Below, one piece after another: positions 32,728-53,959 of a stretch of DNA of 53,959 nt. The DNA is from Candidatus Saccharimonadota bacterium (GTDB taxonomy: Bacteria; Patescibacteriota; Saccharimonadia; Saccharimonadales; Saccharimonadaceae), in NCBI GenBank assembly GCA_017645955.1, contig JAGCNM010000023.1, positions 1-53,959 on the forward strand, given 5' to 3'. A program made the position numbers and the translations under genes. Within the stretch, counting starts at the first letter, position 1; each line of letters starts with the position of its first letter. The notes beneath the pieces are model-generated. The model saw only the letters and a list, made by a program, of their open reading frames with translations, did not search any database and was not told where the DNA came from.

Positions 32728-32760
32728 CAACTTGATAGTTTTTTGATAAAATTATCAAGT
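32710..32760 (+). promoter_or_regulatory. three operator-like repeats over the fic promoter
   Basis: CTATCAAGT (32710-32718), its inverse ACTTGATAG (32730-32738) and TTATCAAGT (32752-32760) have centres about 20-22 bases apart. They overlap the consensus promoter TTGACA (32724-32729), N17, TAAAAT (32747-32752). The last copy abuts the start codon. This is a plausible autoregulatory operator for the C-terminal helix-turn-helix region of the Fic protein. Confidence 0.75.
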
Positions 32761-33873
32761 ATGAATAAAGTGTTTAATCCAGAATTACCAAATAATAACT
32801 TGGCTGTATTGCCTCCAGATGTCGATTTTAGAGATTCTGATATTTTGATTGCTTCGATGAAGGCGAGTCGCTCTGTGTCTCAACTTAGAACTAGGCTTAC
32901 TCTTAGTAAACGCACCATAGCTAACGCAATTGATCTTTTTTCTCCTTTGTTTGTTCCGGAGGCTGTGGCTAGTTCTGGAGTTGAAAATATAATAACAACG
33001 AATGATAGCGTTTATATTGCAAAAATCGAAAAGATAAGGAATTTAGAGCCCGTCGAAAAAGAAACATTACGATATACTGATGCTCTAGAACATGGTGCAC
33101 ATATCGTTAATAATCGTGGATTTTTGGCGACTAATGATTATATTAAGCTACAGAAAATGCTCGAACCTGCTCAAAACGGAATCAGAAATTATCCTGGAAC
33201 TACTCTGAAAAACCCAGTTACCAAAAAAGTGTATTATACGCCGCCGGTTGGAGAAAAGAAAATTAGGGATTTATTATCGAATTACGAGAAGTATTATAAT
33301 GAAAAGGCACCCACACATGAAGTGTATGCTAGAATGGCTATTTTACATTATCAGTTTGAAGCGATACATCCATTTGGAGATGGAAATGGTCGAACTGGTA
33401 GGATTTTGATGCCGCTTTATTTAATGGTGCAACAAGAATTGCCGGTACCAGTTTTATTTATAAGCCAGTATATACTTAATAACCGAGATAGTTATTATGA
33501 GCTACTTAGAGGTGTCACTAATAATGGTGATTGGAAGAGTTGGATACTGTTTATTATTGAAGCGACGGAAAAACAGGCAGATTACACTACTAGCGTCTTG
33601 CAAAAAATTCAAGATAACTTGAGCAAAACAAAAGCTTTGATTAAAGAAAAGTATCCAAGCATTTATTCTTCGGAGTTGGTAGATTTTCTCTTTTCCAGAG
33701 CGTACTTTACGGAAAAGGATTTTGAAAAAGAAATTGGGGTTAGCCAGGTGACTGCGAGAAAATACTTGGTGGCATTAGAAGCAGAGCATATTCTGGACAA
33801 AAAGAGACAGCCAAAGAGAAATCGTTACTTATATGTCAATAAAAAGTATACGGACGTGATACTTAATATATAA
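32761..33873 (+). CDS. fic: class II Fic-domain adenylyltransferase with C-terminal DNA-binding region
   Basis: The 370-residue protein transfers AMP from ATP to a hydroxyl side chain of a target protein. The complete Fic motif HPFGDGNGRTGR is at 203-214. A match to the class II inhibitory motif (Ser/Thr-x-x-x-Glu-Asn), SSGVEN, lies at 71-76, so autoinhibition by an N-terminal helix is expected. The C-terminal 60 residues resemble a winged helix-turn-helix (EKEIGVSQVTARKYLVALEA). The start MNKVFNPE was chosen because the promoter and repeat lie directly before it; the upstream in-frame ATG is inside the promoter. No antitoxin gene is adjacent. It is convergent to brxL, sharing a terminator. 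Confidence 0.93.
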   Translation: MNKVFNPELPNNNLAVLPPDVDFRDSDILIASMKASRSVSQLRTRLTLSKRTIANAIDLFSPLFVPEAVASSGVENIITTNDSVYIAKIEKIRNLEPVEKETLRYTDALEHGAHIVNNRGFLATNDYIKLQKMLEPAQNGIRNYPGTTLKNPVTKKVYYTPPVGEKKIRDLLSNYEKYYNEKAPTHEVYARMAILHYQFEAIHPFGDGNGRTGRILMPLYLMVQQELPVPVLFISQYILNNRDSYYELLRGVTNNGDWKSWILFIIEATEKQADYTTSVLQKIQDNLSKTKALIKEKYPSIYSSELVDFLFSRAYFTEKDFEKEIGVSQVTARKYLVALEAEHILDKKRQPKRNRYLYVNKKYTDVILNI

Positions 33874-33928: not shown

Positions 33929-35401
33929 TTAGTTGACCAATTCGGGAATGGTGACGGGTTTTTCTTCGTTGGTCTCCTTATTTATATAGGTGAAGTTGCG
34001 GTCGGCGAATTCGGCGCCTTCGATGCGGAAGAGTTGTTCCTTGACGCGGCGGCGACCTTCGAGAGCATACTCAAGAATTTCGGCAATATCTTCTTTAGTG
34101 TAATCTCCACCTGGATATAATAGTTTCACTAAGCCAGAAACGGTTTTGCGGACGGCGATGACGTCGCGTTGGTTTAGGTCGTGGCCGAGTTTGAAATACT
34201 GATCAAACGCATCTGAGAAATTGCGTTTCCTGAGCTCGCGGAAGAATTCCGATAAATAATCGGTGATAAACCCATAATCATCGGTAATTAGTTCTGGACG
34301 CATTTTGGGAACTTCCCAGCCTGGTAAATAATAATGCATGCGATCAAAGAAAGCTGAGTCATCACGCATGGCGGATGGGAATGGGGCAAATAGATGTGAA
34401 TTGGCAGCCAAAATATCCTGAACCGATTGGTTGATGTTGCCAACGAATACCATAGAAGCTTTGGCGCTTTTTTCTTCTTTTCCGCGAGCGAAAGAGCCGG
34501 AGGCCATGTAATCTTTCATGATTTGAACACCGTCTTTATCCTTAAAAGTGATGCCAGCAACTTCATCAAAAGCAACACAATCCCAAAGCCCAACTAGACC
34601 AACAGTGCGAGAAGCCATATTGTAAAAGAGATTAGCAACGGTGGTTTGTCCGCCGGACACAAGAATTGAGTTTGGTGAGATTTCCTTGTAGATATGTGAT
34701 TTGCCAGTACCGCGTGGGCCGAGCTCGCACATGTTATAGTTATTCTCGACGAGCGGAACGGCACGTTCTAGCATGTGCCATTTTTGACGATATTCCAGAT
34801 GACTTGGTTCCATACCCATAGAGCGAATTAAAATGTCAATCCATTCATCTTTTGTAAACGATTTGCGGCCATTCACGAGTTCTTCAAAATCCATGCTGGG
34901 GAGTTGGATTGGTTTGACTTCGCTAACCACAAAAGGTAAAGATGGAGTATTGTCATCATTGTCACCATGATAATAACTGACTCTAGAAATACACCAAATA
35001 CCACCAACGAGAAGTTTTTCAAATTGCTTAACGATTTCTGGGGAGATATAAGCACGCTTGATGCCAAGGTTGGAGAATTCTGCTTCGTAACGATCCTCGC
35101 GTTCGTTAAGTCGAACGGTGATTTTGTCGATTACGGTATATTGGGTGCGTTCGCGAATAAGGCTTTTAACTTTTTCGGCTTCGTCGGGACGGACGAAATT
35201 GTCGGCGAGAATTTTCTTTACCATAACGACGCCGTCTTCTATAGCGGATTCGTCGTCGGTGGCGCAATACATGCCGAGAAGATACTCCAAGACATATACT
35301 GGAACATTGGCACCTTCTTTGATTTTTTTAGTTAAGTCTTTCCGGACGACTTTGCCGGGGAAGACTTGGTTTAGTTTATTACTAATCATGACTTTGTCCA
35401 T
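33929..35401 (-). CDS. brxL: BREX protein BrxL, ATPase part only (C-terminal Lon-like domain missing)
   Basis: BrxL is the ring-forming AAA+ protein that ends type 1 BREX operons. Seen here: an N-terminal DNA-binding-like region (about 1-170), Walker A GPRGTGKS at 228-235, Walker B WDCVAFDE at 273-280, and the AAA lid segments to about 460. The chain ends at residue 490 with a VTIPELVN stretch. In full-length BrxL (about 680 residues, by family knowledge) this position is the linker into the Lon-like domain. No continuation exists downstream; the terminator and fic gene follow within 60 bases. Either a short functional form or a truncation is possible. It is 12 bases after pglZ, with GAAAGGA as ribosome site. 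Confidence 0.88.
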   Translation of the reverse strand: MDKVMISNKLNQVFPGKVVRKDLTKKIKEGANVPVYVLEYLLGMYCATDDESAIEDGVVMVKKILADNFVRPDEAEKVKSLIRERTQYTVIDKITVRLNEREDRYEAEFSNLGIKRAYISPEIVKQFEKLLVGGIWCISRVSYYHGDNDDNTPSLPFVVSEVKPIQLPSMDFEELVNGRKSFTKDEWIDILIRSMGMEPSHLEYRQKWHMLERAVPLVENNYNMCELGPRGTGKSHIYKEISPNSILVSGGQTTVANLFYNMASRTVGLVGLWDCVAFDEVAGITFKDKDGVQIMKDYMASGSFARGKEEKSAKASMVFVGNINQSVQDILAANSHLFAPFPSAMRDDSAFFDRMHYYLPGWEVPKMRPELITDDYGFITDYLSEFFRELRKRNFSDAFDQYFKLGHDLNQRDVIAVRKTVSGLVKLLYPGGDYTKEDIAEILEYALEGRRRVKEQLFRIEGAEFADRNFTYINKETNEEKPVTIPELVN

Positions 35402-35413
35402 GTTGATTCCTTT

Positions 35414-37921
35414 CTATAATAGTGACATGATGATGTCAATCTTAAAGTTGATGCGATCTTCGTAGCTGGCTCCGTCTGAGATTATTAGAGAGTAATCGGA
35501 GTTTTTGTCATAACTACGGGTTTGAGAGAATACAAACTTTTCTTTAAATTCGCGTTTTGTGGGGTCTTGGTCGGCGATATCGGCAATAATGGTTACTTCA
35601 TTGCTAATTCTGTTCCCGTCTTTATCTTCAAAATAAATATGGTAAGTGGCTGGGACTTTTTCTTCGGAAACCGGTTCATCTTGGACGAATTTGAGGAAGG
35701 TGATAGCGTTGGTGATTTTGGTGCTGATGCCATTATAAAGAATTTTAACTTGCGGTAGGTTGGTGGTCTGACGTGATGATTTGAAGGAGAGCCTTGGAAC
35801 GATGACTTCTTGAGGCATAGCACCACCATGAGTGTAGTTACTGGTGGCGCCACGTTTGCGATAAACAGTGTTGCCACGCGGAATGTTGACGTATCTGGTA
35901 TCATCTGGGTTTAGGTAATTCATCTCAAAGCTTAAAGTATCTGCTGAATCACCTTTGGTGGCAGAAAGGGAATAACGTTTTTTGATTTTTGTAGCGTCGG
36001 TACTTTCATCAATGCGATCTAGATTGATATTGCGGTAGAAGAAGCCGTGGTCGGAAGTTAAAATGACATTAACGCCGCTAAAGGTAGTATGCAACTCTAG
36101 CACTAATTGGCTTAGCTCTTTGATAGTACGTTCACAGGCATCGAATACCTTTTTATCGTCACTTTCACCAACCTTGTCGATTACGTCGTGATAGATGTAG
36201 ACGTATTTTTTGCCGGAGAATAATTTTTTCCAGTCAGTTTTTCTGGGAGGTAAATCGTCGTATTGAATTGCCATATTGTCCGGATTGGTTGAAGTGAGGA
36301 TTTTGTTGCGGTTGTCGGTGCCAGCAGTGGAGACGCCATCCGATGTAACGCTTTCGTCGCTACTTGCAACTAGCTTGCCATGAGGCAGGAGAGCGGCCAT
36401 GCCGAGCTGAGTGTAGGAGGGAACGACGCCAATCATGGGGTCAATGGAAACGGTAGCGCCGGATTTGCGAAGCTCGTTTGCTAATTCAGCAGAAACTTCG
36501 TAGCGCATGGCGTCAGAAATAATCACAAAGACACGGTCTTTCTTGCCATCGAGAGGCTGGAGAGAAGACTGATAAAAATCCTGTTGAAGTGCAATATCGC
36601 CTTCGTCCCATTTGATATCGGTGATGGAGTTGCACCATTTCTCAGCGAGACGATCACAATATTCCATAGTGTAGATGTTTTCGATGTGCTCGACTAAGTT
36701 GATGTAGTTGTCGTTTTTGGTTGATTCGGAGTAGGCTTGATTGAATTTGCGATAAAATGTGTCAATTTGATAGAGTTTTTCAGCATAGAGTTTGGTGAGT
36801 TTATCGCGATTAGATTCGACGATGCTCATGAGATTTTGTTTGACGGAATCGAAGAACTTGTCGGCATAATCTAGCATGTCGTAATCGGTGCGATATTTTT
36901 CGCAGAGATTTTTGGTGCGACGAGTACGCAATTCGGTAGTAATGGAATCGTTGTTGTCTAGTTTGATGAGTAATTTCTGAATAATAGCAACATCGATGGC
37001 CTCGAAAGTATCGGCATTGATGAACGAATCTAGGTCGAGTTGTTCTAGTATTTCGGCGAAGTTATATTTATCTGCGACTATTTCGGCATATTCAAGATAT
37101 AAATCCGCAGTGGTCCTATCGTTAACGAGGTCGTGGACTAGCATATTGATATTAGCGGAAGCTTCTTTTGGCAAAATGAAATCTCTGAGGCGTGGGATGA
37201 TGTTTACTTGGTCTAGGTTGTAGAAGAAATAGGAAACGATGATTCTTTCAAGAGTTGCATTTAAATCGTCAAGATTTACGCTTTTGTCGCCGAATTCATT
37301 GATAATAAGGGATGAGATATATTCGTCGTCAATGAATTTGAGATCTTTGACGAATTCGGTGGGGTTTTGCATGTAGCTACGGAAGATGGCGATAAAAATG
37401 CGGTCTTGACGAATGGAGTCGGCATTGAAGTTGGTCGCAACAAAAGTACGACTTAAATCGTCTTCGCTTGGATTTGGCGGTAGATATTCTTTGATTTTGT
37501 TAACTCGGGCTTTGTTCTTGAAAAATCGCTTGTTTTTTTCTACGACTGGACGGCAATGCTGGGGGAGACCGAGAGTGTTAAGGTCCAGGGTGATTTCGTC
37601 TGGCACAAATACACTGCCCTTATTCCTCATTTCTAGGGCGATGAGTGGATTTGAGGCGCTGCTGGAGTATGGCTGTTCTAGGTAAATTAGGACATTGACA
37701 CCTGGGGCTAGATTGGCGATGTGGTTTTCAATAAACATCGGGTTGTCATCGTAGACGATGACTTCGAGATTGTCGGAAACTAGGTCACTTAAGTATTCAG
37801 CATTTTGGCCATCTTCGTCGTACCAGACGAGGATACGACGAGGTTCGCCTAGGCGAAGTGGCTCAGCGAAATAATCAGTGAGGTATTTTAGGATTTCGTC
37901 GTTAATGTTATCGCTTTGCAT
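35414..37921 (-). CDS. pglZ: BREX alkaline-phosphatase-fold protein PglZ (BrxZ)
   Basis: The 835-residue protein belongs to the PglZ family essential in BREX. The core domain has the metal-binding strand VFVIISDAMRYEV (about 464-476) and VPSYTQLGMAALLP with the conserved threonine. YVYIYHDVIDKVGE and NVILTSDHGFFYR follow with the distal metal ligands near 575-650. The N-terminal half is helical. The precise reaction of PglZ in defence is not known. It overlaps pglX by one base and belongs to the six-gene operon. Length is ordinary for type 1 BREX, and no key motif appears lost. Confidence 0.95.
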   Translation of the reverse strand: MQSDNINDEILKYLTDYFAEPLRLGEPRRILVWYDEDGQNAEYLSDLVSDNLEVIVYDDNPMFIENHIANLAPGVNVLIYLEQPYSSSASNPLIALEMRNKGSVFVPDEITLDLNTLGLPQHCRPVVEKNKRFFKNKARVNKIKEYLPPNPSEDDLSRTFVATNFNADSIRQDRIFIAIFRSYMQNPTEFVKDLKFIDDEYISSLIINEFGDKSVNLDDLNATLERIIVSYFFYNLDQVNIIPRLRDFILPKEASANINMLVHDLVNDRTTADLYLEYAEIVADKYNFAEILEQLDLDSFINADTFEAIDVAIIQKLLIKLDNNDSITTELRTRRTKNLCEKYRTDYDMLDYADKFFDSVKQNLMSIVESNRDKLTKLYAEKLYQIDTFYRKFNQAYSESTKNDNYINLVEHIENIYTMEYCDRLAEKWCNSITDIKWDEGDIALQQDFYQSSLQPLDGKKDRVFVIISDAMRYEVSAELANELRKSGATVSIDPMIGVVPSYTQLGMAALLPHGKLVASSDESVTSDGVSTAGTDNRNKILTSTNPDNMAIQYDDLPPRKTDWKKLFSGKKYVYIYHDVIDKVGESDDKKVFDACERTIKELSQLVLELHTTFSGVNVILTSDHGFFYRNINLDRIDESTDATKIKKRYSLSATKGDSADTLSFEMNYLNPDDTRYVNIPRGNTVYRKRGATSNYTHGGAMPQEVIVPRLSFKSSRQTTNLPQVKILYNGISTKITNAITFLKFVQDEPVSEEKVPATYHIYFEDKDGNRISNEVTIIADIADQDPTKREFKEKFVFSQTRSYDKNSDYSLIISDGASYEDRINFKIDIIMSLL

Positions 37922-40900
37922 TAGAAATCTCCGTATTCTGACTTGATGGCGTCTTTTAGGGGTTTATCTTTAAGGACATCGTTGAGGATATGGGCACCTT
38001 TTTTGACGTCGGTGGCGGCGTAGGATAGTTTGATGTAATTACGTTTGATGCCATCGTCTAGGTCTAATTCGATGCGTTTGTCGGCGATGTTTTTGAGAAG
38101 TTTATCAAATTCCTTGATTTCGTCGAGCTTGTCGGCGAGATCGGATTGTTCGGTTAGCAATTCGCCACGTTTCATACCACTGGCGGACTGGAGCTCGGTT
38201 TTGATTTCGGCGAGACGATGATCATAGTAGTTCATAATGGGAGTGACATAGTCAACGCGAACTTTGGCCATGAGGCTCGGAGTATAACGGTGGATATAGA
38301 AGAGAGCTTTAAAGGCATTGTGTTTGCCGGAAGAGATTTGCCAGTAGATGGGACGACCGTCGCTTTTCTTGGTGGGATCAGCGTAGATTTCGTGGGCGTG
38401 GTTGTTGAAGAATTCGTTGACGAAATAGTTACGAATGACATCTTCGCTGTTTTCGGTATTTTTGCGGCCAAGGCCCTCAGCGAGCCAGTCCAAATTAGTG
38501 GAGAGGGTGCTGGAGCCGAAATCAGATTCTAGGAAGTGGCGAAGTTTATTCATAATGTCGTCACGACCGATGGAGTCGTGGTCCATGATGGTGATAATGC
38601 CATCGCTATCAACCGTGTCGTTCTCGGGAAGCTCGGTACCTGGACCGGCATATTGGATGCCTGGCTTGTCTGTGGAATAACGCCCCATGACACAACCTAC
38701 GAAGTAAGAAAGGAAAGAGCGGGCTTCACGAGCATGGTCGGCTTTACGAACGGTAATGCGGTCGTCGGGGACATCTGGAGTGAGCTCATCTTGTAATCCG
38801 TAGAGTTCGATGGCGATTTCGTTGAGTTTTTCTTCGTTGGACTTAAGGTTATTGAAACGTTCTTCGCAGTGTTTCTCGTAAGCGGAGAAAGCGTCGGAGA
38901 GCTTGTTACTTTCGGTTTTGTATTTGAAGAGGGGATGAGCAGTAAAGTCCCAAGATGTTTCGTAGTCGTCCCAGTCGTCTTTAGATAATAGTCTGTTTTC
39001 TTTAACTAGAGCAACTGTAGTGTTCCTGTGGTCGGTTGACTCAACGATGGGATATGTAGATATTTGTCCAACTTCAAAGCTAATAGTTGGCGAAATGTAA
39101 CTAGCAATTTTACTTAAAACATTAGTGTTTAGGATTCCTTGAAGATATGCTAGATCATCTGGCTCTTTACAGAAAATGCTTGCGCCGGCACTGTCAAAAA
39201 TGTGCCCAGCTGGTTTGAATCTAAAGGCAAGATTGAATGAAATTTTAGACCAGGTAATCGAGGGATTAAAATAATAATCTGATCCTCTAACATATGACGA
39301 TATCTTTCCATTTTTGGTGATATGTTTTACTTCGTAGCCGTCATTTTGCCAATTTATTACATAATCATTATTACCATACCATTTGCGATATTGTCCACCT
39401 TTATTATGCGGAAACCATTTTGCAGTAGACAATTTACTTTCTTCTTGGCTGGTGCTGGTTAGCTTTTCTTTACTATAATCCACTTCCCACCATTCCCTCA
39501 GGAATCTATTATTGTCACTACTATCAAGGCCTTTTTTTATAATCGCAAGATTATTTAGTTGTTTAGATGTTGACATAATTGTATTTATTTTAACGGGAGA
39601 CCAATATGCGATAATGTAGCCTGGAAGGGAGCTATAGCTTTCGCTTTTATTCCAAAAACCTTTGTTCTCCTTATCCTCATTTAATATGTCTTTTGCAATT
39701 TTATTTTTGTCGCTCGGTTTTTCATCAATTAGACGAACATAAAAGCCATAATTACCTCTTCTTTTTTCGATAATAAAGGCAGTAGGTATAACGACAAGTC
39801 CTATTCCTTCAAAGATTCCTGCACCTAGATGTAGCATACCGGTGATTGAATAGTTTTCAACTATTTCTTTCCTAAATTTTTCGTAACTGGTTAGAAACAT
39901 CCAAGCGTCTGGTGTAATCATTGCAATTAGTCCATTATTGGTTGTCAAATATATGCATTGGCTCATGAAGACAGACGACATATTGGCGTTTTCATCTGGG
40001 TAGTAATCATTGATATAGTGTTTCAATTTAGTATTGTATTTATTCATGTACGGTGGGTTGGTGACAGCGATGGTGAATTTTTTACTGAGGATTTCCGCTT
40101 GGGCGATGAGCGGTTCCAGTTCTCTGTTAACGCCAAATGTTGTGGCAATAGAATCACTTTTTATGGCATCACGTAAGGCGTCGTAATTAAGGCTACGGAT
40201 TTTGAGGATGGAGCCGTATTCTTTGGCATCGCGGAACGTAGTCATAAGATAATCTAGAATATCTTTGGCTTCTCCAGAAGGAGAGAAAGTTGAAAGGTTG
40301 ACTTTGTTGCTTTCGTGGATACTTAAGATATGTTGTTTGATGGATTTTGCAAAAATCCTGTCATCGTATTTGCGGGCGATTAACATGCAAGAGAGGATGG
40401 ATAATTGATTGGCACGGTCGTCAATGTCTAACCCGTAAAGGTTATTGTTGAGGATGAGCTCAGGAATTTCGCTTTTTGGATAACCTTCGGATTCGTAGAT
40501 TTGATAGAAAACTTCGAAAGCATAGATAAGGATGTGGCCAGAGCCGGAGCAGGGGTCAATAAAAGTGATATCTTCTATCTTTCGATTATCGTGGATTGTT
40601 TCTGATTCTTCCTTTTTCTTGACGAGGTATTCCCATTTTGATTCTAGGGTTTTGTTAGGATGACGATCTAGCCAATAGCGACCAAGAGAATTCTCGACAA
40701 GATATTTAACAACCCAGTCGGGCGTGAAAATTTGAGTGACATATGGGATATCTTCCTTGGTGGTTGGAGTTTTAAGCTTCATTGCACGGTCTTTTTCGGC
40801 TTGATTGTAATACTGATAGAGCCAGCCGATGATTTCGGTGTGCTTGAACTGCTCTTCGCCGAGCCTTAAAATACGATCGTTTAGACCGTCGGGAGTTAAT

Positions 40901-41463
40901 AGGTTGTTTGGAATAAGCCCGTCGATATTCTCGGTGTCGCCATCAAAGACATCAGGGATAGCTTCACCGAGTTTCTTGACTACTGCTAGAATAATGGTCT
41001 TGTATTTTTCTTGATCATTCATTTCGGTGAGCTTGGCGTAGTCGATATCGAGAGAGGTTTCACGGAGTTTGGACATAGTCATGATTTCGGGGTTGCGGAA
41101 ATCTTTGCCGGATTTGTCGCAGAGAACTTTGATGTCTAGAGATTCGAAATTGGGACCGAGAGGGAGGAAATTATTTACTTCCATGTAACGGATGGCGACA
41201 ATACGGTTAAACCAAGTGTATGCGGATTTTTCAATGATGGCTTTGATGCCGTCACGAGAAACGGCGGATTTAAGTTTGTTGTAGCGTTCGTAGTCAGAGG
41301 CTGACATGGCGCGAAGAACGTGCTCGGTGTTTTCGTATAAATCACCGTGTTGCGTAAAATGTAGGTCTTCTTCGATATGGAGATCTTGCAGTTTGACCTT
41401 CATGAGGTTGGTGAGTTTTTCGCGAGCATCCATCGCGAAAGATTTGAGTGCGTTTTTGTCCAT
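37921..41463 (-). CDS. pglX: BREX adenine-specific DNA methyltransferase PglX (BrxX)
   Basis: The 1180-residue protein is predicted to methylate N6-adenine at a short asymmetric site to mark self DNA, and is needed for phage exclusion. Motif I DPCSGSGH is at 303-310 and the catalytic NPPY at 469-472, in the order typical of these enzymes. The large C-terminal part should hold the target-recognition region (about 640-870), which by eye is more AT-rich and less regular in codon use than the flanking segments, as expected for a fast-evolving specificity domain. It overlaps brxC and pglZ by one base on each side. The recognised sequence cannot be read from the gene. Confidence 0.96.
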   Translation of the reverse strand: MDKNALKSFAMDAREKLTNLMKVKLQDLHIEEDLHFTQHGDLYENTEHVLRAMSASDYERYNKLKSAVSRDGIKAIIEKSAYTWFNRIVAIRYMEVNNFLPLGPNFESLDIKVLCDKSGKDFRNPEIMTMSKLRETSLDIDYAKLTEMNDQEKYKTIILAVVKKLGEAIPDVFDGDTENIDGLIPNNLLTPDGLNDRILRLGEEQFKHTEIIGWLYQYYNQAEKDRAMKLKTPTTKEDIPYVTQIFTPDWVVKYLVENSLGRYWLDRHPNKTLESKWEYLVKKKEESETIHDNRKIEDITFIDPCSGSGHILIYAFEVFYQIYESEGYPKSEIPELILNNNLYGLDIDDRANQLSILSCMLIARKYDDRIFAKSIKQHILSIHESNKVNLSTFSPSGEAKDILDYLMTTFRDAKEYGSILKIRSLNYDALRDAIKSDSIATTFGVNRELEPLIAQAEILSKKFTIAVTNPPYMNKYNTKLKHYINDYYPDENANMSSVFMSQCIYLTTNNGLIAMITPDAWMFLTSYEKFRKEIVENYSITGMLHLGAGIFEGIGLVVIPTAFIIEKRRGNYGFYVRLIDEKPSDKNKIAKDILNEDKENKGFWNKSESYSSLPGYIIAYWSPVKINTIMSTSKQLNNLAIIKKGLDSSDNNRFLREWWEVDYSKEKLTSTSQEESKLSTAKWFPHNKGGQYRKWYGNNDYVINWQNDGYEVKHITKNGKISSYVRGSDYYFNPSITWSKISFNLAFRFKPAGHIFDSAGASIFCKEPDDLAYLQGILNTNVLSKIASYISPTISFEVGQISTYPIVESTDHRNTTVALVKENRLLSKDDWDDYETSWDFTAHPLFKYKTESNKLSDAFSAYEKHCEERFNNLKSNEEKLNEIAIELYGLQDELTPDVPDDRITVRKADHAREARSFLSYFVGCVMGRYSTDKPGIQYAGPGTELPENDTVDSDGIITIMDHDSIGRDDIMNKLRHFLESDFGSSTLSTNLDWLAEGLGRKNTENSEDVIRNYFVNEFFNNHAHEIYADPTKKSDGRPIYWQISSGKHNAFKALFYIHRYTPSLMAKVRVDYVTPIMNYYDHRLAEIKTELQSASGMKRGELLTEQSDLADKLDEIKEFDKLLKNIADKRIELDLDDGIKRNYIKLSYAATDVKKGAHILNDVLKDKPLKDAIKSEYGDF

Positions 41464-44400
41464 TAGAAGACCTCCAATTCATCATTATTATTTAATTGTT
41501 CCATGAGATAAGTTTTTAGTTCGGACAGAAGGGCGTCTACATCTTGTTCGGATTTGATGGTGTGAGTCTTGATTGGTGCGGTTAAATCGCCTGGACGGAT
41601 GGTGCGTTTCTTTGGTAAGTTGGTTGGCGTGTCGGTACCGCTGGCGGCGGCTTTCTTGCGAGCTTCTTCCTCTTCTCTACGTTTCTTTTCTTGTTCTTCA
41701 AGAGCTTTGCGACGGCGTTCAGTAATTTCATCCAGTTTGCGCTTGAGTGAGGTGGTGAGGCTTGGCAGGTTGGAGATACTACGATACGGCTCGGGGTTTG
41801 TGAGGATTTCGTTGATTTGGTCTGGTTCATCGCCGTCGATAGTATAAGTTAGGGATTGAGTCTTGTACTCATTCATGACGTTTACAGCATCGTCGAAAAT
41901 TCTGGCCTGAGTGCTTTCAAAGAATTCTTTGACTGGGGCGAGATCCTGCATTGCCGAAATGATTGCGGAACTGCGATCATTTATTGTGTTGAACAATTCA
42001 GTATTGTCTTTGATTTGAATTAGCTCGCGCAAGATTTCATCAGCTGAATTTACGGCGTCTTCGCCTGGGTATTTGTAGGTGCTATGGGTAGCGTAGCGAC
42101 CAAGGAGGCTGCTGATGACTTGCTTTTCATCGCCGATGGCGTCTTTCAACTCGGAAATGATTTCGTCCTCGTTGGTCGTGATGGTATTTCGCGAGAAAGC
42201 ATTCTTTAGGATGTCTTTAGCGGTAGAGAGTAGGTCGCTTGCGATTTTTTCGCGGATTTTGATGAGGATGCGGTCGTATTCGCGAGTTTGAGATAAGGCT
42301 GAGGAAAACTCGCCGAGACTCAAGGTAGAATTTGACTTAGAGACGGAGAGTTTGCCATCTCGAGTAAGAGATGCAACTAGATACACCACATCATCGGTGT
42401 CAAATCCAAAGGGTCGTTTGTCAAAATGACTGATCAGATCTGATAGCTGGGTTTGAGGATAATGGTTGAGAGTGCGTTCATTGATGAATTCGAAAACCTC
42501 TTCTTGGGCCTGAGGATTGACTGGAGTGACCATCTCGTTCTGAGGCTTATTCAAAAGAGCGCGAGCGTCAGAAGTGGATTTTTTGGAGACGATATAGTCT
42601 AGTTTGGTGTAAGTGGTTTTAACTAGTTCACTTTGAATGAGTTTGAGGCGAGCTTTGGCTTCGGCGGAAGGGATGGTTACTTCACCTCCACCAATGAATA
42701 CCGGTGCGGATTCAAGACATTCTGCGATTTTTTCGCGAACTTTGTCGTTCATAGAGTTCATTTCGTTTTTTCGAATCTCGATGATGTGTTGACGTTCTGC
42801 GGAGCTGGTGGTGCTAGCGTTTTTGCGTTGGAATTTTTCAATCCTGATGGCGCGACGTAGTAAATCTTCGGTCTCGTCATCTAATTCGATGGCGATATAG
42901 GCACGGTCGGTGTTGATGATAGATTTGCTCTTGGCAGACTCTTTGGATGTGGTGAAAATTAGACAGATGTCGTTGCCAGTGCCAGCGGTGAGCTTGTGGT
43001 CGTTTAAGTAATAATCTACCGAGAAAATGCGACGGTCTTGATAATTGAATTTGTTACCATCACAAACACCACGGACGATATTGCCGATGCGCTCGTTAAC
43101 CTCATCTGGATTGACGTTTTCATCCTGGATGGCGCGGTTGACTTCTTGTTCTTCGTCGGTTAGGAAGTTGTAATTATCGCCACTTTTCTGGATAAAGACT
43201 TCGTCTTCTAGGCGCTTGAGGCTGGCTTTGATGCGTTTTTCGAGTTCAAGTTTGTCTTCGCCAAGCTGAGTTAATTCGAGAGTCGTGATGTTTTCAATGG
43301 TTGGAGGAAGAGTGTTGGAGCCACGGAGCATGAAAAGTGTTTTGAGAACGGGAATATCGGCGTTGTTGAGCTTGCCTTCGGTGACGAGCCCTTCGGCACG
43401 GGTGATGATTTGTTCTACGGAAGAATCTACTGCCGTGCTGATGGTGTCATAGAAGGCAGAGAAGGGAATGAGAGCGCCGATTTCGGCATTTTCGTTTTTG
43501 ATAGCAGTTTCTTGGACGGCGCTAAGAAGGGAACGGGCACCGGAGGAAAGATGAGCGCCGGCGAATCCTTTGGTTCTGATGTAGGTATAGGTATTTTGAA
43601 CGAGGGCAAATTGGAAGGGAATATAAGGGTAGGTAGCAACGAAATCATCGGTGTCTTTGTAGAGCTTTTGAGTTTGGGTGCCAGCAGAGAAGGAGAAAGC
43701 GTTACGAATATCGGCGCCGTCTTGCTCATAGCGAGCACGTAAGGTGTCGGTGGCGGTGTCGGTTTTTTCGAGGAGACGAGCTTTGATGACTTCTTCGATG
43801 TCAGTAGAAGCGAGTTTGATTTTGGTGTCAAAACGACCAAGAATTTTGGAAAAGTCGTTACGTTTGAAACGTCCGCTCTTGACGACTTCGTCGATGGCTT
43901 CTTGGCTGGTGCAGACTACCCAGGCTTTGCCATTGGTATGGATGCCGAGTTCTTCGACGATGGATTGGAGATTAAGCATAAGGTCGCCTTGGTCGCCAAT
44001 GTATTGCCCGATTTCATCAATTAAGAAGACGACGTGGTGATCACCTCCCTTTTCTTCGATGTATTTTTGGATACGCTTGGCGAAGATTTCGGGGGAAATA
44101 TCATGATGGTCACGGCGAGACTCGAACGTGCGATTGGCTTCGTCTACTGATACGCCCATGACTTCGGAATAGACTTCCGCGATATGCTCCTGTTCGAAGT
44201 CGAAATCGTTGCGGATGTTTTCCCAGCCTTCGCTGAATTTGGATTTGAACTCTTCGTATTTGCCATTTTCGTCAAGATAACGCTCAATATCGGCAACGTA
44301 ATTGATATGGGAATAACCGAGTTTTTCATTGAAGACGTTTTCCATGACTTTGAGGATGCGGTCTTTCTGGGTGGTGTTTTCGAGACCGGCTTTGGTGTCG

Positions 44401-44792
44401 ATGTTGAAGAGAATGACATCAGTAGGCACATTACCGGCACGTTTGATATTACCGAATAGCATAGCGTCTTTGATTTTGGATTCGAAATAATCAACGGCTT
44501 TTTTGCCATCAATTTCGCGGTTTTCTAGTAAATAGGCAATCATTTTGAGAAAATGAGATTTACCTGAACCGAAGAAGCCACTAATCCAGACGGCCATGTT
44601 CTCTGTGAGACCAGTTGAACCTAGGCTGGTAGTGTAGGCATCGAAGAATTCATTAAAGTGGCGTTCGATTTCGCCGGTTACTACGTATTCTTCCAGCTCT
44701 TGTTTAATGACCGTAGTGTCATCGTTGTCAACTTTGATGACGCCTTGGATGTTACGGTTAATGTCTTTCTTGTAGATTTCTTTAAGTATCAT
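41463..44792 (-). CDS. brxC: BREX ATPase BrxC
   Basis: The 1109-residue P-loop ATPase is the large motor-like component of type 1 BREX (related to PglY). Walker A GFFGSGKS is at 72-79 and Walker B VVFLIDE at 254-260, followed by a helical body. A highly charged region near 1040-1070 (EEQEKKRREEEEARKKAAAS) leads to a final short domain. The start has AAGGAG before it, 13 bases after brxB. It overlaps pglX by one base. No frameshift or missing core motif was noticed. Confidence 0.95.
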   Translation of the reverse strand: MILKEIYKKDINRNIQGVIKVDNDDTTVIKQELEEYVVTGEIERHFNEFFDAYTTSLGSTGLTENMAVWISGFFGSGKSHFLKMIAYLLENREIDGKKAVDYFESKIKDAMLFGNIKRAGNVPTDVILFNIDTKAGLENTTQKDRILKVMENVFNEKLGYSHINYVADIERYLDENGKYEEFKSKFSEGWENIRNDFDFEQEHIAEVYSEVMGVSVDEANRTFESRRDHHDISPEIFAKRIQKYIEEKGGDHHVVFLIDEIGQYIGDQGDLMLNLQSIVEELGIHTNGKAWVVCTSQEAIDEVVKSGRFKRNDFSKILGRFDTKIKLASTDIEEVIKARLLEKTDTATDTLRARYEQDGADIRNAFSFSAGTQTQKLYKDTDDFVATYPYIPFQFALVQNTYTYIRTKGFAGAHLSSGARSLLSAVQETAIKNENAEIGALIPFSAFYDTISTAVDSSVEQIITRAEGLVTEGKLNNADIPVLKTLFMLRGSNTLPPTIENITTLELTQLGEDKLELEKRIKASLKRLEDEVFIQKSGDNYNFLTDEEQEVNRAIQDENVNPDEVNERIGNIVRGVCDGNKFNYQDRRIFSVDYYLNDHKLTAGTGNDICLIFTTSKESAKSKSIINTDRAYIAIELDDETEDLLRRAIRIEKFQRKNASTTSSAERQHIIEIRKNEMNSMNDKVREKIAECLESAPVFIGGGEVTIPSAEAKARLKLIQSELVKTTYTKLDYIVSKKSTSDARALLNKPQNEMVTPVNPQAQEEVFEFINERTLNHYPQTQLSDLISHFDKRPFGFDTDDVVYLVASLTRDGKLSVSKSNSTLSLGEFSSALSQTREYDRILIKIREKIASDLLSTAKDILKNAFSRNTITTNEDEIISELKDAIGDEKQVISSLLGRYATHSTYKYPGEDAVNSADEILRELIQIKDNTELFNTINDRSSAIISAMQDLAPVKEFFESTQARIFDDAVNVMNEYKTQSLTYTIDGDEPDQINEILTNPEPYRSISNLPSLTTSLKRKLDEITERRRKALEEQEKKRREEEEARKKAAASGTDTPTNLPKKRTIRPGDLTAPIKTHTIKSEQDVDALLSELKTYLMEQLNNNDELEVF

Positions 44793-44805: not shown

Positions 44806-45369
44806 TTATCTTTCGACTAATTTGTCGGCTCTATAATAATTAGTGGCAGGGAATTTGCCAAAGAGTTTGAGGCTTTGGCCATCATACTTGCCTGGGTAAA
44901 ATAAAACAACTGGATTCTTAGTGACTGAAACTTGCATATTGGCGAGAAGTGTGTGAGCGCGGATAATGCGATAGCTTTCGCCGATGCCGGTAATGAAAAT
45001 GATTTTATCTTCTGGGATACGTTTAATAATCTCTTGCATTAGGGTGCCGTTTTTGTTTTCTACGCCTAATGCGCGCATAATAGCGGTGGCGGCGTGTTGG
45101 GTGTCCTTTTTGCTTTCTAGTTCGAACACTTTGTCGTAATAGTTTTTGGATTTGAGGATGTCGATAATGATGTCATGGATGTTAATAATAACAATTTGAT
45201 CGTTGTCGGTTGCGAATTTATTGATGTAATCCATGACTTCGTATTCGTCTTCTGGGTCGTAGTCAAAAATGTAATAATTGACTTCACCACCAAGGCCGTG
45301 ACCTTTTTTGAGGTCTTCGGACTGAACTCTGCGACGAAGTTCTTTGAGTCTTTCATTAATGCTTAACAT
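44806..45369 (-). CDS. brxB: BREX protein BrxB (DUF1788)
   Basis: The 187-residue protein begins MLSINERLKELRRRVQSEDL and contains NYYIFDYDPEDEYEVMDYI, both characteristic of BrxB. IIFITGIGESYRIIRAHTLL and VVLFYPGKYDGQSLKLFG near the end complete the family pattern. BrxB is a small essential BREX component of unknown activity that interacts within the complex. It overlaps brxA by seven bases and is followed by brxC after 13. Confidence 0.93.
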   Translation of the reverse strand: MLSINERLKELRRRVQSEDLKKGHGLGGEVNYYIFDYDPEDEYEVMDYINKFATDNDQIVIINIHDIIIDILKSKNYYDKVFELESKKDTQHAATAIMRALGVENKNGTLMQEIIKRIPEDKIIFITGIGESYRIIRAHTLLANMQVSVTKNPVVLFYPGKYDGQSLKLFGKFPATNYYRADKLVER

Positions 45370-45977
45370 GTTCCTCCTAGAGCTTTAATGTAATAGTCGC
45401 CACCATCTGCTAGGATGGTACTGCGAGTTCGCTCGGAAATAATCGGTGTGGTAATTGGGAAGTCGCTACCTTGTTTGGTAACAAGACCTGCATCGGCGAG
45501 AATTTTCATAAGGGTTTGCTTGAGCTTGGCTTTGGTTTGGTCGCTGCAATTTAGAAGTTTATCGGACTCGGAATAGACGGATTCGAAATACTGTTCAATG
45601 TCGGCTTTGACGATTTTGTCGGATCGGATGAGGACTTTGTCGCCGTAGATACTAGTAATAAAATCGCGGACTAGGCGGTCCGTGTTGCATATAATATATA
45701 GTAGGATGATTTTGGCGTTGTAGTCGTCGGATTCAAGAAAGGCTTGCAAGATATCATCTGACATGGCTTTAAGACGACGGATGATGGGCGTGGTTACGCG
45801 TTTTAAGCTACCGGTACGCTTATGCATGATGAGATTTTCTTGCAGGTTACGTTGCTTGATTGATTCTAGTGGCTCACCTTGCAGCAAAAGCTCCGCTAGA
45901 GTCTTAGTTTCACTATATAATAGTGGCTCTGCGGTGAGGGAAGCTGAATATTCTTGTTGTGTAATTTTTGCCTTCAT
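45363..45977 (-). CDS. brxA: BREX protein BrxA (DUF1819)
   Basis: The 204-residue helical protein of the DUF1819/BrxA family carries the blocks SASLTAEPLLYSETKTLAEL, NLQENLIMHKRTGSLKR, LLYIICNTDRLVRDFI and the final TRSTILADGGDYYIKALGG. BrxA binds DNA in other systems and is the usual first gene of type 1 BREX. The start MKAKITQQEYS is preferred because a consensus promoter ends seven bases before it. A longer in-frame start at 46013 would lie inside the -35. No Shine-Dalgarno site is present, so the operon mRNA is near-leaderless. Confidence 0.93.
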   Translation of the reverse strand: MKAKITQQEYSASLTAEPLLYSETKTLAELLLQGEPLESIKQRNLQENLIMHKRTGSLKRVTTPIIRRLKAMSDDILQAFLESDDYNAKIILLYIICNTDRLVRDFITSIYGDKVLIRSDKIVKADIEQYFESVYSESDKLLNCSDQTKAKLKQTLMKILADAGLVTKQGSDFPITTPIISERTRSTILADGGDYYIKALGGTC

Positions 45978-46050: not shown

Positions 46051-46215
46051 TTGGGTTGTTTTGGGGTTTGTTCGCAGGAATGTGCTTGGAGGCATTCTGA
46101 AGGTCGTTCGAGTGATTGTGTTTACTTGAGGTTTTTTGAATTATTATTATAGACTCTAGGATGTAATAATTTTTATTGTTTAATGAAATTGTATATTCTG
46201 AAGTTATACTTTGCT

Positions 46216-48003
46216 TTAGGAGAATGATAATGGATCCGTGAATGCATTTGAACCTTCGTGTATATTCTCGACTGCTTTTGGCAAATCAAGTAGCTCTCTA
46301 AGTTTTGATTCAAGCAGGTTTCGTCTTTCTTTATAGAAGTTTAGGAAGTCTTTTGTTTCGAATGAGACATTAGTAGGGAGGCATAGAATTGAATCTTTTT
46401 GGGTGTAATTGTTGTACCAACTAATGAACGATTCGTTATACTTGCGTCCATTCTTGCGACCTTCGAGAATCTGAAGATTTGGTAAGCGATCGCGTAGGTC
46501 TTCGCATCTTTCCGCATCTTCTTTAGATAGTCCTAAGTTTGTTAAACTTTCAACCGCCAAGAGGGAACGTGGATGACAGTGATCTTGGTGAAACGCTTTT
46601 TCTCCGAATAAAAAATTCTGATCAAGGATAGTGAGAATTGTGAAAGTAATGTCGCTCTTCTTGCGGTCAAGAACGTCTTGGAGATCGTCTTCGGTGAACA
46701 ATAAGTAATCGTGATCAGCTGAAATCATATATTCTACTTTGAAGTCTCGGTGCTTTAGCTCACGAATTGTTTGATTGTTCTGCTCATAAGAATTAGTCAA
46801 TAAACTACGTAAGTGATTTAGAACTTGGTCAGAACTAGCATGGAAGATGCTTTTGGCTTGTGCGATTAAGAGATACTTGCGCATTTCCGAATAATCTGAA
46901 CTATAATCTTGTTTTTTTGACTTAAAGACGTAATATGTTAATGGCAAAATGGCATTTTTAGAAGTTAAGTTGTCCTTGCAATAGCCAAAATCGGACAAAA
47001 GTTTTACGGTGAGAATTAGGGAGTTTTGAATATCTTCCCATGAGTTTTTGATTTTATCTATGTTTTCGGAATTAAGATTCGCTACTTTTAGAGTAGTCTG
47101 TAGATCCATTAGGTAGAGACAGGTGGTAATAATTTCTTCAGTGCCAAAGTTGAATCCTTGCCCCATATCATTGAGTTCTTTAATGAGTTCATCGAATTTT
47201 TTCCGTGCATTATCCCATTGGCTCACTATTGTAGAGAAGAGCAGGTCGCCTTTTGACAACTCTTTGCCACCACTATTAACACGAATGAAGATATCTAGGA
47301 CTTCATCCATAGTTTTACTGGAGATTTCAAAGTAATTTATTATATTGTCATCGGCTAGCAACTTGGTAGCAAGAAGACTGATGTTTTCTTCTACTATTGG
47401 ATTAGTGTATCCTTTTTTGCGTAACCACGAATTGGTTTTTGAGAATGATTCGATAGAATAAATATCTGAAACTTTAACCCATAAGGTCTGTCCATTTGAT
47501 TCTTCGGCTTCTTTTTCAGTGAGAAATTTGAATTCATATTGTATATCCTTACCTTCGTTTGGCGTTTGACCGCTAAGGGCATTGAAGTATAGTTCGGTTT
47601 TTTCGTAGGCGTTGGTGCTGTCTTGGCGAACATATTTTTGCTTGCGCGTAATGGAGCCTTTAATGCCAATATATAGTGCACTCATGCGTTGTTGACCATC
47701 CAGGACCCCGAGTATTTCTTTTTCATTAAATGATTTACAAACTTCATTGTATGGCTGGCGATCATCGTAGTTTTTAATGAAGTCATAGAAGGAATACTTT
47801 TCAAAAATGTTTTCAGTGTTGATTCTCCAATACAAAAATGTTCCTATTGGATAATCTCGCATGATAGAGTCGAAGAGACGCGTGATTTGATCATTGCTCC
47901 AGACTAGTTTTCGTTGAATTGCTGGTAGAAACATGGTGGTGTTGATGGTAGAAAGCGTTTCATAAATAGTGCTTTTGCCGATTTTTAGATTCTTTTTTTC
48001 CAT
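46216..48003 (-). CDS. DUF262/HNH (GmrSD-like, BrxU-like) nuclease
   Basis: The 595-residue protein is of the GmrSD type IV restriction family. An N-terminal DUF262 domain has FLPAIQRKLVWSNDQI (about 25-40) and the NTP-binding DGQQR at 102-106. A C-terminal DUF1524/HNH-like domain has HQDHCHPRSLL starting near 472, followed by RLPNLQILEGRKNGRKYN. Such enzymes cut modified DNA using NTP hydrolysis. One homologue, BrxU, accompanies a BREX locus elsewhere. The start MEKKNLKIG at 48003 is chosen because AAGGAT lies six bases before it and the only good -10 lies within the longer frame that could start at 48093. Confidence 0.87.
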   Translation of the reverse strand: MEKKNLKIGKSTIYETLSTINTTMFLPAIQRKLVWSNDQITRLFDSIMRDYPIGTFLYWRINTENIFEKYSFYDFIKNYDDRQPYNEVCKSFNEKEILGVLDGQQRMSALYIGIKGSITRKQKYVRQDSTNAYEKTELYFNALSGQTPNEGKDIQYEFKFLTEKEAEESNGQTLWVKVSDIYSIESFSKTNSWLRKKGYTNPIVEENISLLATKLLADDNIINYFEISSKTMDEVLDIFIRVNSGGKELSKGDLLFSTIVSQWDNARKKFDELIKELNDMGQGFNFGTEEIITTCLYLMDLQTTLKVANLNSENIDKIKNSWEDIQNSLILTVKLLSDFGYCKDNLTSKNAILPLTYYVFKSKKQDYSSDYSEMRKYLLIAQAKSIFHASSDQVLNHLRSLLTNSYEQNNQTIRELKHRDFKVEYMISADHDYLLFTEDDLQDVLDRKKSDITFTILTILDQNFLFGEKAFHQDHCHPRSLLAVESLTNLGLSKEDAERCEDLRDRLPNLQILEGRKNGRKYNESFISWYNNYTQKDSILCLPTNVSFETKDFLNFYKERRNLLESKLRELLDLPKAVENIHEGSNAFTDPLSFS

Positions 48004-48045
48004 TGCATTATCCTTAATTACGTTATCGTTGTCTATAGCATATGC

Positions 48046-48072
48046 CATGATTATATCATGTAGAAACATGAT
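48046..48072 (-). promoter_or_regulatory. operator-like repeats over the nuclease gene promoter
   Basis: CATGAT (48046-48051), ATCATG (48055-48060) and CATGAT (48067-48072) form two adjacent palindromes with spacers of three and six bases. The -10 TATAAT on the minus strand (48050-48055) lies inside the first palindrome. A repressor here would block the promoter; none is recognised next to it. Confidence 0.6.
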
Positions 48073-48097
48073 ATATGTATGCGTAGCCCTCATTGTA

Positions 48098-48703
48098 TTA
48101 TTTTAGTGCGAAGCGGTCGGTCCAGTCAGGCTTTTGTTTTCTGGCTCTTCTGAGCTCTCCCTTTAGACTTCGTGCGATTTCATCGTTCCATTCTTTGCTT
48201 TTGGCGCGGCCGTGGCCGAATTCGACTTGTCGTGATTCGTATTCTGCTGCTGGATTGTCGTAGTCTAGAGAATGGACGAGTGGTTTGGTGGACTTCTTGC
48301 TGATGGTGCGCTTTTTCTTGAGTTTGATTACTTTGGGCTTTTCCGGAGTAGATTGCTTGGATAGTTTATCGAGTGAAGCTTTTATTTTCTTGGCTTTTAG
48401 TTCCTCGGAAAGTCTTTTCGCTTTTTCGGCAGAATAATGATAGGTGTTTTTGTTTTCAGCAAATGCCTTTTTCATTTCTTGGATGGCTAGCTGGATTTTT
48501 TCGTCTTGTGTTAATTCTTTTTTTGGTGATTGTTGGAGGTTTGGGGTTTTATCAATAGGGCGAGGTTGTTTAGTTTTGATTTGGGGTTGTTTTGATTTAG
48601 AATGCTCTACATCAAAATGATTAAAGGCGTTGAGATATTTCTGACTGATTTTGGATTTGGAGAGTTTGTTTAGGGTCTTTTCGGAAATGTATAGCTTACT
48701 CAT
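48098..48703 (-). CDS. lysine-rich hypothetical protein
   Basis: I recognise no family for this 201-residue, very basic protein. The N-terminus looks helical (ISEKTLNKLSKSKISQKYL). The middle is low-complexity Lys/Pro/Gln followed by a likely coiled coil (about 75-120). The end is mixed (AEYESRQVEFGHGRAKSKEW, WTDRFALK). There are no cysteines or membrane segments. It lies upstream of the nuclease gene on the same strand and may be co-expressed. TGATATAAT six bases before its ATG predicts a leaderless mRNA. A nucleic-acid-binding role is possible from its charge. Confidence 0.68.
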   Translation of the reverse strand: MSKLYISEKTLNKLSKSKISQKYLNAFNHFDVEHSKSKQPQIKTKQPRPIDKTPNLQQSPKKELTQDEKIQLAIQEMKKAFAENKNTYHYSAEKAKRLSEELKAKKIKASLDKLSKQSTPEKPKVIKLKKKRTISKKSTKPLVHSLDYDNPAAEYESRQVEFGHGRAKSKEWNDEIARSLKGELRRARKQKPDWTDRFALK

Positions 48704-48760: not shown

Positions 48761-49174
48761 ATGAACTCAGTTTTCGAAACAGCGTTAGAAATTGCCGTGA
48801 AGGCACATAAAGGGCAGGTGGATAAGAATGGGGTGGCGTATATTTTGCATCCGCTGGCGGTGGCGGGGCTTCTGGATTCGTTGGAGCTCAAAACCATTGC
48901 GGTTCTACATGATACGATTGAGGATACGGATGTGACGGCGGAGTATTTGCTGGAAAAGGGAATTCCGAAACACATCGTGGAGGTGGTGCAGCTTTTGACG
49001 AAGCCGGAGGATGAGGAATACGAATCATATCTTCGGCGGGTGAAGGAGAACCCTTTGGCGAAGCAGGTGAAGCTGGCGGATCTTGCGAACAACACCGATC
49101 CGAAGAGGGCGAGTGGGTTGAATGAGGTGCGGAGGAAGAAGTATGAGCTCGCGAAGAGGGTGCTAGGGGAATAG
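48761..49174 (+). CDS. HD-domain small alarmone hydrolase candidate (Mesh1/SpoT-HD type)
   Basis: The 137-residue protein has the signature set of (p)ppGpp hydrolases: AHKGQVDKNGVAYILHPLAVA (about 15-35), HDTIEDT at 50-56 and KLADLANNTD near 103-112. These provide the metal-binding histidines and aspartates and the Glu-Asp hydrolase pair. It consists of the HD domain alone, with no synthetase, TGS or ACT domains, shorter than the about 180 residues of Mesh1. The expected role is to lower alarmone levels in the cytoplasm. TGCTACAAT lies nine bases before the ATG, so the leader is at most a few bases. Confidence 0.8.
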   Translation: MNSVFETALEIAVKAHKGQVDKNGVAYILHPLAVAGLLDSLELKTIAVLHDTIEDTDVTAEYLLEKGIPKHIVEVVQLLTKPEDEEYESYLRRVKENPLAKQVKLADLANNTDPKRASGLNEVRRKKYELAKRVLGE

Positions 49175-49211: not shown

Positions 49212-49643
49212 ATGGATAAGACCATTAAACAAAGTATTGATGCGCGGAAGGCAGCGTATGCGAGTAGTTTTGAGATTGATGCGGAGACGCAGAAAAAGAT
49301 TGATGCGCTATTTGTAGAAATTGAAAAGTTGGGAGAGAAGTGTAAGAATGCTGGTGAATTTGAGGCGGAGTTTAGCAAAAGTCCGCTCAATCAAAAATAC
49401 ATGGATCTATTTACGGAAATTGCGACGAAAAGTGCGACTAAAAATGCCGTAAAAGGTGCAGCGGTGGGTGCGGTGCAAAGTGCGGCGGAGCAAGCTTTGA
49501 GAAACGTCGTACCGACGCGCGCGGCGGTGCATCAAAGAGCTTACGACGAAGCGCGAAGGATTCCTGGCGTAGGAGATGCGATTGATATTGGTGAAAAAGC
49601 GGGCTATGCGTCGCATTTGGTGAAATTGTTCAAGAAGAAATAG
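49212..49643 (+). CDS. hypothetical helical protein with Ala/Gly-rich segment
   Basis: I recognise no family. Of 143 residues, the N-terminal 60 are predicted helical and charged (RKAAYASSFEIDAETQKKID). An Ala/Gly/Val-rich stretch (about 73-98, KNAVKGAAVGAVQSAAEQAL) resembles a glycine-zipper or amphipathic membrane-contact helix. The C-terminus is RRIPGVGDAIDIGEKAGYAS followed by a basic end. There is no signal peptide. The gene has its own leaderless promoter and stands alone between two other solitary genes. Confidence 0.62.
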   Translation: MDKTIKQSIDARKAAYASSFEIDAETQKKIDALFVEIEKLGEKCKNAGEFEAEFSKSPLNQKYMDLFTEIATKSATKNAVKGAAVGAVQSAAEQALRNVVPTRAAVHQRAYDEARRIPGVGDAIDIGEKAGYASHLVKLFKKK

Positions 49644-53322: not shown

Positions 53323-53959
53323 TTAGGGGGCGTCAACGACCCATGGGTCGGTTGCGGTGCCGGTACCGCTAGACGCGGCGGTGCCATGCTGTAAGGAAAT
53401 AACGGGCCTGACGCCGGCTGATTCGTTTGGAGTTGTGCCGGTGATTGCACCATTTGCACCTACGCTATATTGTCTTAAGCTACCATCGGATCGTCGGTAA
53501 CGTGGAGAGAAGGTCCAGAAATTTGAACCAGTTCGTAAGAAGGAATTGGCGTTATAACTGTAAGTATTAGTATTCCCGTAGCCATTTCCAGAAAGTGCAG
53601 CTTCGTCGGTTGTGATTAAAGCGACAGGTTTACTTAATTGTTTGTTGCCATCCGAAGCGGAAGATGTAGAATAAATATCCACTGTGCCGCGCGTGCAAGA
53701 AAGGGTGAGAGTAGCGTTAGCTACTTTATGGCGAGTATAGGCGCCGAAGTATGCTACAGCTGAAGCGTAAGGAGCGAGGTTGGTGATTGCGGTCGAGCCG
53801 GATTCGTTGTAGAAAACCGATCTATCGTTACAGTATCCTGCACTTGGTTCAAGAATACTTTCATAGGCGCTGACGCCGTTTGTGCTGGTAAACCAGGTGT
53901 TTTCTAGATAGGTTTTTATCGATGAAGCAGTAGCGTTAGTGGTTGAGTAATTTGAGTTA
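53323..53959 (-). CDS. secreted surface protein, C-terminal part (partial)
   Basis: The frame is open to the window edge with no convincing start, so at least 211 residues are the C-terminus of a larger protein. It is rich in Ser, Thr, Asn, Gly and Tyr, with blocks SIKTYLENTWFTS, CNDRSVFYNESGS, YFGAYTRHKVANATL and FLRTGSNFWTFSPRYRR. It ends in GVRPVISLQHGTAAS and a TATDPWVVDAP tail. This style matches exported, beta-rich adhesin-like or pilin-associated proteins of Saccharibacteria; I infer extracellular location. The internal GTG at 53682 is not a likely start because the fold pattern continues upstream. Confidence 0.7.
   Translation of the reverse strand, partial: NSNYSTTNATASSIKTYLENTWFTSTNGVSAYESILEPSAGYCNDRSVFYNESGSTAITNLAPYASAVAYFGAYTRHKVANATLTLSCTRGTVDIYSTSSASDGNKQLSKPVALITTDEAALSGNGYGNTNTYSYNANSFLRTGSNFWTFSPRYRRSDGSLRQYSVGANGAITGTTPNESAGVRPVISLQHGTAASSGTGTATDPWVVDAP

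Follow-up and report, generated by a model that had tools for sequence, protein, structure and literature searches.

The association of BrxU with BREX is already published (PMC8565348), and the parts of that account drawn on here describe, for pEFER of E. fergusonii, a BREX system that acts on unmodified phage DNA and a BrxU enzyme that cuts cytosine-modified DNA with nucleotides. In the same parts, BrxU is defined by two nucleotide motifs, RLFDS and DGQQR, together with DHxxP as its HNH motif, and the crystallised enzyme is an interlocked dimer. On the phage side, T4 internal proteins Ip1-Ip3 target GmrSD and BrxU enzymes, as stated in the excerpts used here of two further papers (PMC12373910; PMC12409352). 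A literature search on Saccharibacteria, BREX, and restriction-modification listed no report of BrxU in the Saccharibacteria phylum.

Here, we analysed a 53,959-nucleotide stretch of DNA (hereafter, the window) from a Saccharimonadota genome of 0.91 Mb (60 contigs, 99.8% complete), in which genes for a nuclease and for a lysine-rich protein lie next to a BREX operon (Table 1). We consider it probable that a BrxU-type enzyme complements type I BREX at this locus and that the lysine-rich gene is mobile and accessory and does not encode a nuclease subunit.

The nuclease gene and the adjoining BREX operon

Both open reading frames given in the preliminary description were recovered on the minus strand, the strand of BREX, with the nuclease frame (46216-48093, 625 aa) ending 239 bases before the brxA ATG (45977). 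The frame is intact and full-length compared to BrxU. Judged from the sequence, the in-frame ATG at 48003 (595 aa) is a likelier start than 48093, because AAGGA lies just 5' of it and homologues begin at about the same place. Pfam GmrSD_N was matched above its cut-off (2.3e-28), GmrSD_C fell 0.7 bit short (1.3e-4, 22.3 bits; cut-off 23), and the DUF262 and HNH (DUF1524-type) domains are fused in one chain. PADLOC assigned the protein to HEC-05 (540 bits), which we take to be a GmrSD-like candidate group, and NCBIfam gave no match. With E allowed up to 1, phmmer returned a single PDB sequence, E. fergusonii BrxU (7p9k/7p9m; E 4.4e-81, residues 23-579). The DGQQR and HQDHCHP motifs that had been noticed at the outset are present, and TRLFDS, DGQQR, and DHCHP correspond to the two nucleotide motifs and the HNH motif of BrxU; across 41 aligned BrxU-like proteins, LDGQQR, D474, H475, N509, and N518 never vary. 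For the AlphaFold model (mean pLDDT 86.9), BrxU was again the best fold match (Foldseek 3.8e-34; VIA Z 31.4 and rmsd 21.6 A, with 545 residues aligned). The large rmsd implies that the domains are placed differently in the model and in crystal BrxU, for which the interlocked dimer may be the cause. By sequence, predicted fold, and motifs, the nuclease is a BrxU-type single-chain GmrSD enzyme, and its early identification as such was borne out by the phmmer, PADLOC, and fold matches.

Table 1 Features of the brxU-BREX locus (positions in the window)
Feature	Position	Strand	Remark
Fic-family gene, flanks BREX here and in G037	32743..33873	+	
brxL, short form, 490 aa	33929..35401	-	TIGR02653 847 bits and TIGR02688 627 bits, both above cut-off
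pglZ type A	35414..37921	-	TIGR02687 461 bits, cut-off 270
pglX, BREX-1 adenine methyltransferase	37921..41463	-	NF033452 1139 bits, cut-off 500
brxC	41463..44792	-	PADLOC BrxC 1060 bits
brxB	44806..45369	-	Pfam BrxB 4e-35
brxA	45363..45977	-	Pfam BrxA 8e-46
Block of brxU and lysine-rich gene, missing from G037 BREX locus	46098..48701		DNA homology break
brxU, DUF262 + HNH (GmrSD-type) type IV restriction enzyme, 595 aa	46216..48003	-	Frame open to 48093
Perfect 10-bp inverted repeat, 4-base spacer, over extended -10 before brxU; possible operator	48052..48075		Function putative
Lysine-rich accessory gene, 201 aa, pI 10	48098..48703	-	
HD-domain gene flanking block	48761..49174	+	Pfam HD_4 4e-7; 98.5% aa identity to G037 copy
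Hotspot anchor gene	49212..49643	+	In 60/170 genus genomes

Separate promoters for the two genes, as initially proposed, are plausible. The two genes are 95 bases apart, from the stop of the lysine-rich gene to the brxU ATG, and this gap holds an extended -10 on the minus strand (TGATATAAT, found by eye) with no recognisable -35; a consensus promoter scan did not list it. The perfect inverted repeat that overlaps this element suggests regulation. When the whole window was shuffled, 25 of 100 shuffles gave at least one inverted repeat with up to three mismatches; the repeat at 48052-48075 is perfect and sits in the 95-base gap. Other inverted repeats were present before other restriction genes, none of them like this palindrome. 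An Rfam scan of 30000-53959 gave no match, and a partial ORF (53323-53958) runs off the contig end, a similar-looking short ORF opening locus L042.

The adjoining BREX operon is complete: six core genes in the type I order A-B-C-X-Z-L, all on the minus strand and each with a frame free of internal stops. Of the 174 genus genomes, 2 had BrxL, and the window copy aligns to TIGR02653, a model of 675 positions, over positions 4-481 only. A sister genome, G037, has this BREX operon too, flanked by the same Fic and HD genes, without brxU and without the lysine-rich gene. DNA homology between the two loci stops at 46097 and resumes at 48702, in the start codon of the lysine-rich gene, and the distance from brxA to the HD-domain gene is about 230 bases in G037 compared to 2784 here; this break shows the two genes to be present or absent together, as a single block. 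A TATAAT-like stretch is kept in G037 where the lysine-rich gene would begin (by eye).

Protein identities between the two operons were 90% for brxA, 83% for brxB, 81% for brxC, 69% for pglX, 76% for pglZ, and 98% for brxL. The low value for pglX beside those of brxL and brxA (window 37921-41463 and 33929-35401; L047 10013-17526) looks as if the specificity gene had been exchanged or evolved faster. The Fic-family gene beside brxL in both BREX loci (L047 17582-18712) is 95% identical. The HD-domain gene (L047 4864-5277; L042 539-976), whose G053 copy is 95% identical to that of the window, shows identities far above those of its neighbours and looks recently mobile.

Relatives of the nuclease

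A scan of genome contigs yielded at least 556 BrxU relatives among at least 594 pattern matches, and the best 80 of these relatives were kept together with five plasmid loci chosen from 406 plasmid records with a match, giving 85 loci. BREX genes were present in the flanks of four of the 80 genome loci (best 80 of at least 556; L085, L093, L099, and L131) and two of the five plasmid loci, counts that are lower bounds because many of the contigs are short. HsdM- or HsdR-like genes were found near BrxU in nine of the 85. The small number of BREX flanks implies that BrxU lives mostly outside BREX and joins it occasionally, and that a position inside the operon is a trait of the pEFER locus, not of the family; in the window, brxU lies before brxA and not between brxC and pglX. 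In three loci (L083, L091, and L095), the BrxU homologue stands gapless between an HsdM-matching gene and a same-strand gene of about 490 aa, and looks as if built into type I restriction-modification operons.

In the tree, the window BrxU forms a long branch (1.42) at the base of a mainly Clostridia set with two Saccharibacteria (SH-aLRT 96), away from pEFER BrxU, which falls in the other half. BREX-linked members occur in at least four places. Given the long branch, the substrate range of the window enzyme may have drifted. A search of 149 genomes gave a full-length BrxU in that of the window alone. Two candidate carriers in the genus, G059 and G042, were rejected, as their partial matches (25-41% identity) belong to other DUF262 proteins (L009, L010).

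The lysine-rich gene and its neighbourhoods

The lysine-rich protein is very basic (40 K, 10 R; computed pI 10.0) and, consistent with its first description as of unknown family, had no model above threshold in Pfam, NCBIfam, PADLOC, or PHROGs. Weak rows were limited to DUF6468 (Pfam, E 0.03) and a homing-endonuclease model (PADLOC, E 0.003), with nothing in PHROGs. Its structural model has a pLDDT of 63.6 and a pTM of 0.22, with no confident globular domain. Full-length copies occur in two of 174 genus genomes (the window's own and G079), and the gene was accordingly rejected as a core chromosomal gene. A family-level search (394 genomes) added two copies, both in G427, and a class-level search (392 genomes) added a partial, decayed match in G201 that was detected with a 4-row profile only. 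Weak partial profile matches in six genomes (G073, G035, G075, G170, G224, and G215) were left out of the family, and no further members were found in viral contigs, phages, or plasmids. Members resemble each other at both ends, with an MSKIYxS-like N terminus and a final DRxAxK at the C terminus, and share a stretch like EYxSRxVEFGHGRxKSxEWN that is lost in G079.

Five contexts were found. In the window, the gene precedes brxU; in G079, where the hotspot is the same and BREX is missing, it is followed by a 116-aa gene and a ResIII-Eco57I restriction-methylase. A frame-broken copy in G201 stands just before three genes read as hsdR-hsdM-hsdS, of which HsdM alone is backed, by weak blast similarity to other methylases. 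In G427:C17, the gene is divergent from a non-BrxU DUF262 gene; this contig (L059 1-13870) carries a defence-like island of a related genus, with DUF262, GHKL ATPase, N6-methylase, and GIY-YIG/DUF4357 genes. The fifth copy, in G427:C11, follows terminase, portal, and minor head protein genes (PHROGs E 2.5e-141, 1.1e-110, and 2.1e-81).

Compared to a related phage locus (L169), homology of the G427 phage contig stops shortly before the lysine-rich gene and resumes at the ATG of the next gene, showing the gene to be a neat insert behind a promoter-like stretch. No homologue was found in 25 related phage loci (L145-L169), and in L169 the next gene directly follows the promoter; a conserved phage structural gene was thus rejected as an identity. 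A cargo slot after the minor head gene, with contents that differ by contig, is visible in L145, L146/L167, L147/L168, and L169, and is a place where new accessory genes may be sought. These phage loci also hold homologues of four G037 hotspot genes (E 1e-7 to 1e-58), which implies that phage cargo and the chromosomal hotspot exchange or share genes.

Our preferred view of the lysine-rich gene is that of a mobile accessory gene which travels with restriction cassettes. The main competitor, to which we give somewhat less than an even chance, is that the gene is unrelated to restriction and simply occupies a busy insertion hotspot, so that closeness reflects a shared location. In its favour, three of the four chromosomal copies are close to one and the same anchor gene, the fourth is close to genes of that neighbourhood, and the gene is rare. 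Against this, each of the four has a restriction gene as its direct neighbour or one gene further on. Using the anchor gene at 49212 as a hotspot marker, we read 62 distinct anchor sites for restriction markers; 12 were marked, and all three lysine-rich copies at anchor sites were among those 12 (0.006, a value to be read with the facts that some marker queries came from these very loci, that anchor sites are mutually related, and that the G201 copy is decayed). The other nine marked sites (L041, L047, L206, L211, L214, L220, L225, L249, and L254) have no lysine-rich gene.

The preferred reading, a rider on restriction cassettes, can be taken further. That the protein would modulate or counter restriction is our leading inference, by analogy, since small phage proteins that target GmrSD enzymes and BrxU are known in the internal proteins of T4. 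In its broadest version, which we hold to be improbable, the family is an anti-restriction or restriction-taming protein of Saccharibacteria phages that was captured into restriction cassettes and damps the enzyme during cassette establishment; if so, the brxU cassette would carry its own phage-derived brake.

The preliminary description had proposed the lysine-rich protein as a partner or DNA-binding subunit, and this did not hold for a conserved role: none of the 85 BrxU loci carries a homologue (hmmsearch), the pair has no conserved neighbourhood, and homologues stand beside three non-BrxU restriction enzymes and in a phage cluster. Its model has no confident globular domain. On the 85 empty loci, a conserved BrxU subunit was rejected. 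That the protein serves this particular BrxU as a dedicated partner, as a subunit tethering it to DNA, or as a regulator is a distinctly doubtful alternative. Such a role would fit the adjacency to brxU on the same strand, the joint absence of the two genes from the G037 BREX locus (which favours some link between them), the palindrome over the brxU -10, which could be an operator of the lysine-rich protein, and the family member beside a different DUF262 gene in G427:C17; the neighbours in G079 (ResIII-Eco57I enzyme) and G201 (type I hsdR) and the copy in the phage cluster speak against it, as does the solved BrxU, which works alone according to the parts of its account cited here (PMC8565348). 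Finally, assignment of the nuclease to another DUF262 branch, such as phosphorothioate-sensing SspE or DndI, is very improbable, as the next structural matches (DndI 9jfl; SspE 7dri, 7drr, and 6jiv; Z 9-11.7, followed below Z 9 by ParB-like and other proteins) are far weaker than BrxU at Z 31, BrxU is the sole PDB sequence match, and the annotated stretch showed no recognisable dnd or ssp genes.

Proposed roles and comparison with known systems

BREX would stop phage DNA that lacks BREX adenine methylation, a mark that type I systems place on a 6-bp asymmetric motif of their host. By analogy with pEFER, from which its likely activity and substrate are predicted, BrxU would bind NTP through its DUF262 domain, recognise modified cytosines in incoming phage DNA that escapes BREX, and cut through its HNH domain, and it would need no second subunit. 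Its predicted substrates are those of the BrxU type, DNA with 5mC, 5hmC, or glc-5hmC, with cleavage depending on NTP. The lysine-rich gene would have entered or left the site together with brxU, coming from a gene pool exchanged between phage cargo slots and the chromosomal defence hotspot of this lineage. Counting against this account are the BREX genes in so few BrxU flanks, the place of brxU outside the operon, the long branch of the window enzyme in the tree, the GmrSD_C score slightly below its Pfam threshold, and the shared present/absent block, which a partner would also show.

With this locus, the combination of BREX and BrxU extends to a very small genome that probably belongs to the candidate phyla. 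The locus also presents brxU as a plug-in, given that one and the same BREX occurs at this site both with the gene and without it. Phage cargo slots and restriction cassettes are connected by the lysine-rich family, which allows a simple test of whether phage accessory proteins tame restriction enzymes in this lineage.

Among known systems, the lysine-rich protein is likened in its working to T4 Ip1-Ip3, small phage accessory proteins that are variable except for a conserved end. The likeness drawn is one of putative role; unlike the T4 case, neighbours of the lysine-rich family include non-GmrSD enzymes and most of its members are chromosomal. T4-type internal proteins are packaged in the capsid and injected, inhibit a restriction enzyme, and share an N-terminal leader for capsid targeting. 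What the lysine-rich family shows in this respect is the head-cluster location of one member, and its conserved N and C termini are its own.

The BrxU homologue on plasmid pNP174 of Methanosphaera sp. ISO3-F5 is 41% identical to the window enzyme and directly follows brxL, in a BREX annotated as type 4 with a PAPS-reductase-like gene and without a lysine-rich homologue. pEFER BrxU (PDB 7P9K, 7P9M) is a full-length homologue (about 32% identity) with the same two domains and motifs, and it, too, stands by type I BREX, whose six core genes the window shares in the order A-B-C-X-Z-L. The two loci differ in that brxU lies between brxC and pglX in pEFER and outside the operon, before brxA, in the window, where no WYL regulator gene precedes brxA, and in the length of BrxL, a short form of 490 aa here compared to a brxL gene of 2076 bases in pEFER.
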